Translations under genes and position numbers: made by a program
Notes under the pieces: model-generated
Told to the model about the DNA's origin: nothing
The model's input: only the letters and a program-made list of their open reading frames with translations
The model's database searches: none
Part shown: piece by piece, positions 1,752 through 23,180 of the stretch
Layout of the letters: every line of letters starts with the position of its first letter
Numbering within the stretch: position 1 is the first letter of the stretch
Assembly: GCA_019114625.1 (NCBI GenBank)
Contig: DXFD01000052.1
Location: forward strand, 1 to 61,915
Reading direction: 5' to 3'
Source of the DNA: Candidatus Borkfalkia faecigallinarum
Lineage (GTDB): Bacteria; Bacillota; Clostridia; Christensenellales; Borkfalkiaceae
Length of the DNA: 61,915 nucleotides

Positions 1752-1950
1752 CGTGCGTTCATTCCCGAAAAAGGCAAAACCACGCTTTTGCGCAGCGCGA
1801 CCCTATTTGGCAATCCCTTGCCTTTCGCAGGAAAGGTGAAGCCGCCGCGCGCTTTCAAAGGTGTGCCCTTATTCGCGCAAAAAGAGGGCAGAGCCCTCAA
1901 AAATCGCAGGATCTCGCAGGCAGCAGCCTGCCGAGAGATCCGCGAGAGCA
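1752..1950 (-). repeat. Modular hairpin repeat, copy R1
   Basis: Spacer between argS and the DUF6054 gene. Read on the minus strand it shows the same order of modules as the blocks at 4889-5590, 17085-17372 and 22690-23180: a GCAGGCTGCTGCCTGC hairpin, GAGGGCTCTGCCCTC, the line GGGCACACCTTT, a TTCACC box, and a hairpin of the GCAAAAGC.GTTTTGC type. No gene is visible. It runs in the direction of argS transcription, so the hairpins could act as its terminator. Confidence 0.75.
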
Positions 1951-3790: not shown

Positions 3791-4888
3791 ATGAAACTGG
3801 GAGTCGTAGGCCTGCCGAACGTCGGCAAATCCACCCTGTTCAACGCCATCACCCACGCGGGCGCCGAGGCGGCGAACTACCCCTTCTGCACCATCGAGCC
3901 CAACGTGGGCGTCGTCGCCGTGCCGGACGAGCGGCTGGACAAGCTCGCCGCCCTGTACGACAGCAAGAAGATCACCCCCGCCGTCATCGAGTTCGTGGAC
4001 ATCGCGGGGCTGGTCAAGGGCGCCTCGCACGGCGAGGGGCTGGGGAATAAATTCCTCTCGCACATCCGCGAGGTGGACGCCATCGTACACGTCGTGCGCT
4101 GCTTCGAGGACGAGAACGTGACGCACGTGGAAAACTCGGTCGACCCCGTGCGCGACATCGCGACCATCAATTTGGAGCTCATCCTCGCCGACATGGAGAC
4201 GGTGCAAAAGCGACTCGACCGCGCGAAGAACTCCGCCAAGGGCGGCGACAAGAAGTTCCTCGTCGAGGCGGAATTTTTGCAGCGGGTGTACGACCACCTC
4301 TCCCGGGAACAATGCGCGCGCACCATGGCTTTGACGGAGGAGGAAAAGGAGCAGATGCGCGAGCTCTTCCTTCTGACCGCCAAGCCGGTCATCTACGCCG
4401 CGAACATCTCCGAAAAGGATATGGGCAAGGCGGAGGCCGATCTGCCCCTCGTCAAAGCGGTGGAGGCGTTCGCCGCCAAGGAAGGGAGCGAGGTGCTCGT
4501 CATCTGCGCCAAGACGGAGGAGGAACTGTCGCAGCTGCCGCCCGACGAGGCGCAGATGTTCCTCGAAGAGCTGGGGCTGCAGGAGAGCGGCCTCGACCGG
4601 CTCATCAAAAAGTCTTATTCGCTGCTGGGGCTGATCAGTTACCTGACCGCGGGCGAAAAGGAGACGCGCGCTTGGACGATCGCCAAGGGCACCAAGGCGC
4701 CGCAGGCGGCGGGCAAGATCCACACCGATTTTGAGAAGGGCTTCATCCGCGCCGAGGTCGTCGACTGGGAGACGCTGCTCGAATGCGGCAACTACAACGC
4801 CGCCAAAGAGAAGGGCAAAGTGCGCTCGGAAGGCAAGGACTACGTCATCAAGGACGGCGACGTCGTGCTGTTTCGGTTTAATGTGTAA
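3791..4888 (+). CDS. ychF: Ribosome-binding GTPase/ATPase YchF
   Basis: 365-residue Obg-family P-loop NTPase, full length. The P-loop GLPNVGKST is at residues 7-15, then FCTIEPNVGVV and the Walker B segment FVDIAGLVKGAS; the fourth motif is NISE instead of NKxD, which is the known hallmark that lets YchF proteins prefer ATP. A coiled-coil insert and a C-terminal TGS domain (TKAPQAAGKIHTDFEKGFIRAEV) follow. ATG 3791 is used because CAGAGG precedes it; the in-frame ATG at 3752 lies inside the -10 box. It is a single-gene transcript followed by the hairpin repeat block. Confidence 0.95.
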   Translation: MKLGVVGLPNVGKSTLFNAITHAGAEAANYPFCTIEPNVGVVAVPDERLDKLAALYDSKKITPAVIEFVDIAGLVKGASHGEGLGNKFLSHIREVDAIVHVVRCFEDENVTHVENSVDPVRDIATINLELILADMETVQKRLDRAKNSAKGGDKKFLVEAEFLQRVYDHLSREQCARTMALTEEEKEQMRELFLLTAKPVIYAANISEKDMGKAEADLPLVKAVEAFAAKEGSEVLVICAKTEEELSQLPPDEAQMFLEELGLQESGLDRLIKKSYSLLGLISYLTAGEKETRAWTIAKGTKAPQAAGKIHTDFEKGFIRAEVVDWETLLECGNYNAAKEKGKVRSEGKDYVIKDGDVVLFRFNV

Positions 4889-5590
4889 CCCCTCGGGAAT
4901 TTCTCGGCAGGCTGCTGCCTGCGAAATTCTCCGATCATACAAGACAACCCCGCGGGCACGCGCAAGCGCCGGCCGCGGGGTTTTCCTCGGCGCGGCATTT
5001 TTCAGGGCACACCTTTGAGAAATGCCGCGCCTTCACCTTTCCCCTTTCGCCGCCCCACGCGGCGCAATGGGCAAAAGCCAAAAGTGTGATTTTGGCTTTT
5101 GCGAAATTTTATAAACGGGGTTCACGAAAAAAGTTTTAAGCTGTTAAAACTTTTTCCCGTGAGAGAGAGGGCGCTGCCCTCTGCGCCGCGCTTGGAAGGG
5201 CACACCTTTGCGAACGCGCGGCGCATTCACCCGCTGAGGTCGCAGGTATGCGACAAATGGAGTGCGCTTTGCCAAAAGTGCGATTTTGGCACGCGCAGTA
5301 AGTTTTAAGAAAGTGTTCACGAAAAGTGTTCACGAAAAAAGTTTTAAGCTGTTAAAACTTTTTCCCGTGAGCGGGAGGGAAAACCCGCCGTTCGCGTTGC
5401 TCGGCGGCCGGTTTTCCCTCTTTGCGGCATAATAAGGGCACACCTTTAAGGAATGCCGCAAATTCACCCTTTCCGCAAAAGCCTTGCGGCAAATCGGGGG
5501 CAAAAGCCAAAAGTGTAATTTTGGCTTTTGCAAAATTTTATAAATGGAGTTCACGAAAATCTCGGCGAGCTGACGCCTGCGATTTTTTGT
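4889..5590 (+). repeat. Modular hairpin repeat block R2, about three units
   Basis: An 860-bp gene-free space follows ychF, and most of it is repeated DNA. Two copies carry an identical 12-bp stem with GCTG loop (5128-5155 and 5336-5363), and two carry a 13-bp stem of the GCAAAAGCCAAAA type (5071-5102 and 5500-5531). The line GGGCACACCTTT recurs at about 5007, 5199 and 5427, each followed by a TTCACC box. Modules end in GTTCACGAAAA. A separate GC hairpin with T run at about 4949-4984 looks like the ychF terminator. No coding sequence is supported. Confidence 0.85.
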
Positions 5591-5605
5591 GAGTTGGAAA
5601 AGTCT

Positions 5606-5635
5606 GCCGCCCGCTCCGAAACGGAGCGGGCGGCG
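5606..5635 (-). terminator. GC hairpin downstream of the small membrane gene
   Basis: A 12-bp stem closing on a GAAA-type loop, 115 nt past the stop codon of the leftward gene at 5751. The same 30 nt occur without change at 6565-6594 downstream of the first leucine-rich-repeat gene. Confidence 0.6.
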
Positions 5636-5750
5636 ATGTACTGTGCGGGAACATAGAAACTATTTCTGTTTGCGAAAATACGGCCGAAAGAAAATCTTCC
5701 TCCCCGCCGACTTCCCACCGCGGCTCGCGGGCACGGAGCCGATCCGCCTG

Positions 5751-17015: not shown

Positions 17016-17084
17016 GCCCTTTTCGGGGCGGACTTTTTCCGCCCCCCGCCGAAAGCGCGCCTCTCCCCTCCGCAAAAAAATACG

Positions 17085-17372
17085 CCCCCGCTTTGCCGCA
17101 AGGCTTCCGGGAAGAGGGTGAATTTCCGCGATCATAAAAAAGTGTGCCCTTAACCATAGGGCTCCCAAAAAGGTGCGAAGAACTTTTTATAAAAACTTTC
17201 GCGCAAGCAAAACGACGCTTTTGCGCCGCGCAACTCAATTTGCGCGCAAGCGCCTCAGCGGGTGAATTTGCGGCTTTTATGAAAGGCGTGCCCCTAAAAT
17301 AAGCCGCAAAGAGGGCAGAGCCCTCCCACTCACGGAAATTTGTTTCGTCAGCTCGAAACAAATTTCGTGAAA
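17085..17372 (-). repeat. Modular hairpin repeat, copy R3
   Basis: Gene-free space between spoVM and lon. On the minus strand it carries two units: a hairpin GAAATTTGTTTCG with its complement (about 17334-17369), GGGAGGGCTCTGCCCTC (about 17304), GGGGCACGCC, TTCACCC, the sentence AATTGAGTTGCGCGGCGC, a GCAAAAGCGTCGTTTTGC hairpin (about 17207-17226), and a second GGGCACACTTTT / TTCACCC pair near 17150 and 17115. It is oriented with spoVM transcription. Confidence 0.8.
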
Positions 17373-22689: not shown

Positions 22690-23180
22690 AAAATTTCTCG
22701 CAATTCTCGCGCAAAGGCGCTGCGAATTGCCGAGAGGGAGGGCTCTGCCCTCGGCTTGCGCCTCTTTCGGGGCTTTATTTTTATTTATGGCGCAAGCCTC
22801 ACCAATTTCTTCACGGAAAAAAAGTTTTAAGCTGTTAAAACTTTTTTCCGTGATTTGGAAGGGAAACCCGAACGGTTTTCCCCTCGGCGCTCGTCGTCGC
22901 TCGCCGCTATTTGCGGGCGGCACGCGATACGCGCTCCGCCCCGCTCGGCGCGGCGGCTCCTCCTCTTCCCAAAAAGTTCTTCGATACTTTTTGGGAGCCC
23001 TATGTTCGGGGCACGCCTTACATAACGCGCACCGCTTTCACCCCTTCCGTGAGCCGAGGTGTCGGCAAATTGAGTTGCGCGGCGCAAAAGCGCGGTTTTG
23101 CTTGCGCGAAAGTTTTTATAAAGAGTTTATCAAAAAGTTCTTCACGCCTTTTGGGGAGCCCTGTATTATTCCGCTCACTG
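22690..23180 (+). repeat. Modular hairpin repeat block R4
   Basis: Gene-free 526-bp space inside the hydrogenase-like cluster. It carries GGGAGGGCTCTGCCCTC at about 22736, an 18-bp stem with GCTG loop at 22812-22852 (same core as 5128-5155), GGGCACGCC plus TTTCACCCC near 23010-23045, AATTGAGTTGCGCGGCGC near 23065, the GCAAAAGCGCGGTTTTGC hairpin near 23078, and two CCCAAAAAGTT / GGGAGCCCT stretches near 22974 and 23135. The block is oriented against the surrounding genes. Confidence 0.8.

Follow-up and report, generated by a model that had tools for sequence, protein, structure and literature searches.

A dispersed family of ordered hairpin units behind genes of Candidatus Borkfalkia resembles REP/BIME elements

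The genome of Candidatus Borkfalkia faecigallinarum was found to carry, dispersed between its called genes, many copies of a unit that on the element strand consists of five hairpins, A-B-C-D-E, in fixed order and with the constant linkers TTCACCC and CAAAT. The same dispersion was observed in other genomes of this uncultured genus of gut bacteria, many species having dozens of copies. The family looks like a new, unusually complex relative of the REP/BIME palindromes. It is probably a composite and larger, non-autonomous element of the REP/BIME type, whose hairpins would be handled as DNA and which some enzyme would mobilise; Y1 transposases do not co-occur with it. A non-autonomous element was among the readings offered by the first-pass annotation of the window (the whole stretch analysed, 61,915 nt, which is the entire contig C47 of the draft genome G000; 1.50 Mb, 103 contigs). 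This reading is now the favoured one, but not with a RAYT or Y1 transposase as partner.

Architecture of the unit and arrays of the window

In hairpin A the two arms enclose a central loop that resembles AGCTG; TTCAC often precedes the hairpin and GTGA often follows it. Hairpin B reads GGGAGGGCTCTGCCCTC or has longer forms, and hairpin C is a 10-bp stem with a loop that often holds GGGCACACCTTT. After C come the linker TTCACCC, hairpin D, the linker CAAAT and hairpin E, whose arms surround AAAA-GYGYGR-TTTT, and then the next A. This description of the unit was made partly by eye. Each hairpin occurs with several arm alleles, at least seven in the case of hairpin A in the own genome (by eye). 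The unit is about 190-240 bp long, the spacing in array 2 being 193 and 239 bp, and a single hairpin A or C alone takes about 35-50 bp. Units stack as A-(BCDE-A)n at the ychF site and, tail to tail, as A-BCDE-EDCB-A.

The features of the four arrays of the window are as follows; scores are those of the covariance model R1, described below.

1763..1889, minus strand: array 1, core (C-D-E) of a degenerate unit; argS, with its stop at 1955-1953, lies upstream; R1 79.5 bits
1909..1941, minus strand: array 1, hairpin A, GGATCTCTCGGCAGGCTGCTGCCTGCGAGATCC, starting 11 nt behind the argS stop; by eye
4892..4934, plus strand: array 2, unit 1, hairpin A, the first hairpin, 6 nt behind the ychF stop (4886-4888); by eye
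4946..4985, plus strand: array 2, unit 1, hairpin B, long form; by eye
4983..5106, plus strand: array 2, unit 1, C-D-E core (C stem 4989-4998/5022-5031, E hairpin 5071-5102); R1 103.3 bits
5121..5163, plus strand: array 2, hairpin A at the junction of units 1 and 2, AAAAAAGTTTTAAGCTGTTAAAACTTTTT; by eye
5165..5181, plus strand: array 2, unit 2, hairpin B, short form GAGAGGGCGCTGCCCTC
5176..5300, plus strand: array 2, unit 2, C-D-E core; R1 109.5 bits
5329..5371, plus strand: array 2, hairpin A at the junction of units 2 and 3; by eye
5374..5420, plus strand: array 2, unit 3, hairpin B, long form; by eye
5415..5535, plus strand: array 2, unit 3, C-D-E core (C stem 5421-5430/5453-5462, E hairpin 5500-5531); R1 121.5 bits
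5550..5593, plus strand: array 2, closing hairpin A, TCTCGGCGAGCTGACGCCTGCGA, with a similar one at the same site in G016 and G031; by eye
17067..17173, minus strand: array 3, core of the second, degenerate unit, with a AAAAGTTCTTCGCACCTTTTTGGGAGCCC-type module in place of the C left arm; R1 30.2 bits
17197..17316, minus strand: array 3, C-D-E core of the first unit; R1 102.6 bits
17330..17372, minus strand: array 3, hairpin A, GAAATTTGTTTCGAGCTGACGAAACAAATTTC; by eye
22690..22803, plus strand: array 4, hairpin A, short B and a divergent C (stem GGCTTGCGCC/GGCGCAAGCC, then TCACC), with no R1 match; by eye
22810..22853, plus strand: array 4, second hairpin A, AAAAAAAGTTTTAAGCTGTTAAAACTTTTTTC; by eye
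22985..23111, plus strand: array 4, C-D-E core with a CCCAAAAAGT..ACTTTTTGGG module in place of the C left arm; R1 82 bits

It had been proposed from the window that these four loci share an ordered set of modules. This was borne out: the order is as proposed at all four, some modules being degenerate. In the core of array 1, for instance, the C left arm and the E right arm are mismatched with their partners, and arrays 1, 3 and 4 have no clean closing A. Several boxes that had been listed as modules turned out to be parts of hairpins or linkers, their order standing: hairpin C has GGGCACACCTTT as its loop and is followed by TTCACCC as a linker, GCGGCAAAT covers the right arm of D together with its linker, and GTTCACGAAAA forms the left arm of the next A. 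Stacking had been described as going up to three times; arrays contain 1-4 units in the stretches read.

A second repeat module, consisting of a CCCAAAAAGT..ACTTTTTGGG or TCCCAAAAATCGC..GCGATTTTTGGGA hairpin and about 100 bp, was seen at 22860-23010 of the window, on G008 contig C2 and at G027 loci. In several units it takes the place of the left side of B-C, at similar junctions, as if another element had been inserted there.

Copies and distribution of the family

A blastn search of the own genome with positions 4970-5590 of the window gave 56 matches. The covariance model R1, which represents the C-D-E core, was built from 28 own-genome copies; it gave 39 matches in this genome with a best E value of 6e-31, the 28 training copies matching by construction. 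Further copies had been expected from such a search if the family was real, and they were found well beyond the own genome. R1 matched 35 of 37 Candidatus Borkfalkia genomes, six of them with just 1 to 6 matches and eight of the 37 with at least 57 each; since the best 57 candidates were scored per genome in this survey, copy numbers are lower bounds. The match totals were 73 for G027 and 47 for G008. In G002 and G005, both of the same genus, R1 found no match, though many relatives carry dozens.

Across the order, matches were obtained in 34 of 396 genomes, belonging to eight of 142 genera and to five families, and in the survey that covered the genus 1 of 24 genomes of other families matched. 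A class-wide draw gave 5 matching genomes among 391. The best 8 candidates per genome were scored in the order and class surveys, so that copy numbers are again lower bounds. The only genome of the draw from beyond the order had a single match (E 2.7e-4), which is taken as chance, and a spread beyond the order was rejected on this ground. A scan of named genomes with an exact pattern returned 45 stretches, 35 of which come from uncultured Clostridia or Firmicutes, Clostridia MAGs or Ca. Borkfalkia. The other ten (L187, L190, L199, L204, L209, L217, L220, L227, L228 and L229) are single hits in cyanobacteria, acidobacteria, Rhizobium and others, and such lone hits in unrelated genomes are probably due to chance.

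Seven contigs of G027 (C2, C4, C10, C16, C20, C34 and C39) were seen to be already inside elements in their first 750 bases. Copy numbers are therefore probably undercounted, and the repeats may break assemblies.

The exact pattern had no match in viral contigs, and neither had one 621-base query in plasmid and phage collections; an origin from phages or plasmids was rejected on these results. The proposal that the repeats are neither a tandem satellite nor a known insertion sequence holds as tested, given dispersed copies and no match in Rfam at the gathering score or in the plasmid, phage and viral collections. No paper on Borkfalkia repeats or intergenic elements was found among the best-ranked titles of the literature searched, which mostly excludes subscription papers.

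Pairing and covariation of the stems

Compensatory change was evaluated on a plain MAFFT alignment of the 28 own-genome copies that was not fitted to structure (A1). All ten pairs of stem C were changed on both sides, with 91% of the cells paired. The covariation of the whole structure was 0.350, compared with 0.140 (sd 0.013) in shuffled and at most 0.177 in slid controls. Two of the five covariation measures had no clear lead over the shuffles; pairs with double changes numbered 19 against 16.7 shuffled (30 of 500 shuffles were as high), while for further pair types the figures were 32 and 37.0. On A1 the arms of D and E are out of register between alleles. Two model-fitted alignments, A3 and A4 (76 genus and 41 distant copies), gave higher covariation, which is biased towards the model.

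Stem C was also tallied in 144 of 181 genus units. Only units scoring at least 7.5 of 10 were used, and 37 of the 181 genus units and 16 of 36 distant units, with no scorable C stem, were dropped. The tally comprised 51 arm pairs, with 1403 Watson-Crick, 4 G.T, 7 A.C and 26 other positions. When the 51 arm pairs were compared with a commoner one, 17 were one concerted pair change away, 9 differed by a single-arm change and 24 by more, a comparison that favours concerted changes because badly paired stems were excluded.

Pairing that is selected in a transcript tolerates G.U and does not tolerate A.C. In 659 hairpins from the 181 units, 108 G.T and 123 A.C were counted. The units lying in the direction of the flanking genes had 58 G.T and 62 A.C, and the other units 44 and 41, arrays with missing or strand-discordant near flanking genes having been dropped from this split. 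The control was a set of 224 terminator-like hairpins with a T-rich tail, taken with the same hairpin finder from behind 549 element-free gene ends in six genomes. It is of modest size and its filter was set by ourselves; it showed 77 G.T against 46 A.C (p 0.007; p 0.005 against the element). In 13 tRNAs the count was 25 to 0, which is a weak control, as the tRNA finder counts G-T as paired and possibly leaves mismatches out of its brackets. Since G.U is no commoner than A.C in the element, unlike in the terminator-like hairpins, the constraint seems to act on DNA palindromes instead of a small RNA, and it is apparently as DNA that the near-perfect palindromes are kept. The expected compensatory changes were thus present, but by the G.U count they do not point to RNA.

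These counts also bear on the suggestion that the repeats are a source of small RNAs, which is weakened by the missing G.U excess, even in sense units. It is highly improbable that the family consists of structured non-coding RNA genes, for example a small RNA or a riboswitch-like element. Such genes would fit the conservation seen in loops (GYGYGR for E, GGGCACACC for C) and in the linker TTCACCC, as well as the strand-specific order combined with strong covariation on A1 and on the model-fitted alignments. Yet tail-to-tail arrays leave part of the units antisense, the promoter scan of array 2 returned no promoter-like site (0.3 expected), and at the gathering score Rfam found only one tRNA in the window, with the element unmatched. 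Four matches below threshold were listed for 4880-5600, the best being isrL with 22.4 bits (threshold 35; E 2.8e-4). A small RNA or riboswitch was rejected on the Rfam result at gathering score together with the G.U counts.

Orientation of the arrays and position behind genes

A census of 94 arrays from 20 genomes was carried out, with genes called by a simple codon-usage caller; 14 loci repeated in later stretches were dropped, as were own-genome matches lying beyond the fetched stretches. Units were uniform in orientation in 63 arrays and mixed in 31, and all of the latter were tail to tail. Occurrence in either orientation, as first described, was confirmed in that both are found, but orientation is not free. 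In several tail-to-tail arrays of G008 and G027 the units were seen by eye to meet at an AT-rich palindrome, ATTATTTAAATAAT, for example in L277 near 2118-2133.

Where a gene lay no more than 400 nt from the A side of a uniform array, the array was co-oriented with it in 42 of 53 cases (p 2e-5) and ran against it in 11, one of them in the window; the remaining 10 of the 63 have no gene within that distance and were left out. This p-value, like the others given, is too small by an unknown factor, because orthologous sites of related species are not independent. Array 4 lies opposite to both of its flanking genes. Divergent gene pairs flanked 3 of 67 arrays, compared with 71 of 389 element-free gaps. 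At 49 of 63 array ends, selected as those where A faces a co-oriented gene within 250 nt, other ends being dropped, the distance from the called stop to the start of the first hairpin is 2-15 nt, and in 47 of these 49 that hairpin is an A by eye. Gene 3' ends may be where the element is inserted or tolerated, insertion or survival being favoured right behind stop codons, and at such a place the transcript may come to end in the element.

The short distance leaves no room for another terminator, and bidirectional terminators had been among the first proposals. The place right behind stop codons agrees with them, but a scan of array 2 for a hairpin containing GC with a U-tract behind it found 3 terminator candidates in 4850-5660 with 2.1 expected. 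In its stronger form, which we consider unlikely, the proposal has selection acting on RNA: the arrays would serve as transcription terminators or as structures at mRNA 3' ends, in place of the intrinsic terminator of the upstream gene. It would account for the spacing at the 49 chosen ends, and two E hairpins of array 2 do fit the terminator pattern. Moreover, element-free downstream regions of ychF mostly begin with a plain terminator-like hairpin, at the site where an element stands in the own genome and in its two closest complete relatives. However, sense units do not share the G.U excess of terminator-like hairpins (58:62 vs 77:46), no U-tract follows many alleles of A, C, D and E (by eye), and hairpin A of array 3 comes after a separate GC-rich hairpin.

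Comparison of sites and exchange of modules

The ychF site holds three units in the own genome and one each in G016 and G031, the extra sequence of the own genome lying between GTTCACGAAAA and the closing A. In the genus, 17 of 19 readable downstream regions of ychF were without an element (by eye), one of them being just 68 bp long; 11 of 30 loci were unparsed and left out of this survey, among them that of G031, which was read separately. The argS site is occupied in the own genome, G016 and G031, and hairpins A, C and E differ in allele among them; in G031 the copy contains a run of N. The own-genome sites at 17.1 kb and on contig C52 are empty in G016, and one G016 site is empty in G031. 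The sites read in G008 and G027 are common to both genomes; the number of units differs and half-elements are partly kept and partly replaced (by eye). At the sites compared, neither a clean empty site that would give precise ends nor a target duplication was visible.

Exchange between modules was evaluated with the four-gamete test on 28 own-genome units. Alleles of C were found combined with different classes of D and E: the inner C stem gave 5 quartets against D and 7 against E, and 3 and 5 after dropping five units with an unpaired C stem (23 left); the D, E and C classes that yield these quartets are coarse, with boundaries set by ourselves. No quartet was obtained for D against E or for outer against inner C halves. 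With exact strings there were 0 quartets for all three module pairs, the D extraction being wrong in several rows.

Candidate mobilising enzymes

A RAYT or other transposase with matching ends had been named as a possible partner of the repeats. Matches to Y1_Tnp were found in 23 of 40 genus genomes, including the element-free G002 and G005, and showed no co-occurrence with the element. Five of the eight genus genomes with at least 57 element matches (G001, G009, G027, G032 and G035) had no Y1_Tnp match, G027 with its 73 element matches among them; the genomes are incomplete drafts. The sole PF01797 (Y1 transposase) match of the own genome, at positions 3137-3451 of contig C88 (L051), is an IS200-like open frame of 143 aa, and R1 detected no element in its 3.3-kb locus. 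Among 17 Y1_Tnp or RVT_1 loci, 13 of them Y1, a single marginal R1 match was obtained (E 0.0017), at one of the Y1 loci. A RAYT or IS200-type mobiliser was rejected on the own-genome locus and the 40-genome comparison, and a reverse transcriptase because RVT_1 matched just 4 of the 40 genomes.

The family could also be a MITE of an insertion sequence, with the outer A hairpins as terminal inverted repeats of a non-autonomous transposon. Hairpin A does stand at both ends of some arrays (ychF in three genomes; arrays of G008 and G027), filled and empty sites both exist, and dozens of copies occur in some species with none detected in two. Against this, the seven or more arm alleles counted by eye for hairpin A in the own genome are hard to square with sequence-specific ends, no target duplication was visible at the sites compared, arrays are mostly co-oriented with the upstream gene, and several of them, including three in the window, have no A at one end. 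A MITE origin is therefore regarded as quite unlikely.

Relation to known elements

REP/BIME palindromes form composites with units that alternate in orientation, and the REP palindromes of Stenotrophomonas are preserved through complementary changes (PMC2817692). REPs lie mostly between unidirectional or convergent genes, near the point where the upstream gene ends (PMC3733652). The Borkfalkia element is likewise extragenic, palindromic and of many copies (39 in the own genome, 73 in G027), and it lies between genes, behind them and seldom between divergent ones. As to orientation, which alternates between BIME units, 31 of the 94 Borkfalkia arrays are mixed, all of them tail to tail, and 63 are uniform. 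The Borkfalkia unit has five different hairpins and about 190-240 bp, a REP unit 20-40 bp. The foot of hairpin C, the hairpin covered by this count, is GTAG or CGTC in none of 144 genus and none of 26 distant stems. It is TTCAC instead in 135 of 144 and 19 of 26, a count biased upward since R1 contains TTCAC and was built on own-genome copies, so that its matches lean to this tag. Finally, REPs mobilised by a RAYT go with a RAYT/Y1 transposase gene that the repeat flanks; the Borkfalkia element shows no co-occurrence with a Y1 transposase.

REPINs are paired inverted hairpins. They are described as miniature mobile DNA built from REPs (PMC3116915), and in this respect the Borkfalkia element would resemble them; the five genomes rich in elements but with no Y1_Tnp match set it apart from REPINs with their RAYT. 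BOX elements are made of boxA, boxB and boxC sequences. The BOX element of Streptococcus pneumoniae, treated together with RUP and SPRITE, has ordered modules in variable number and a strong predicted secondary structure, with one profile per module, terminal inverted repeats and target duplications (PMC3049150). Ordered modules, their variable number and strong predicted structure are common to both. Compared by description, the Borkfalkia element differs in that each module comes in many arm alleles and a target duplication was not observed. Some arrays have an A at either end, as the terminal inverted repeats of BOX or a MITE would be, and no clean empty site was found.

The place behind genes, the palindromes, the composites and the opposite orientation of units in part of the arrays agree with REP/BIME, but the element does not fit the tagged REP superfamilies, which suggests a new variant of BIME. 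In the favoured reading, that of a composite element of REP/BIME type, the hairpins would be recognised, copied or repaired as DNA, and units would spread or be rewritten via recombination or a process on single strands, either of which would rely on the hairpins and on the constant linkers. A process reading single-stranded hairpins with a TTCAC/GTGAA foot could copy or repair arms and add units, the GTGAA/TTCAC foot beside A and C being the best candidate for a recognition tag, and recombination in the linkers could swap modules.

A more far-reaching possibility, put forward tentatively, is that the family represents a third superfamily of tagged extragenic palindromes, with the GTGAA/TTCAC foot in place of GTAG or CGTC, that has to date been seen in Christensenellales alone. 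Its arms would be rewritten together by a DNA process, and a hairpin-reading enzyme other than a Y1 transposase would spread it. The concerted rewriting might proceed by hairpin-templated copying, such as template switching. This idea draws on the 17 of 51 C-stem arm pairs that are one concerted change away from a commoner one, and on G.T being no commoner than A.C.

The family shows that strongly covarying intergenic repeats of bacteria are not necessarily functional RNAs, and the count of G.U against A.C separates the two. With 35 element-bearing genomes of one genus and shared sites of differing contents, the growth and change of BIME-like mosaics become directly testable. The family would add a large, rule-governed set of palindromes to an order for which none was found in the literature searched.
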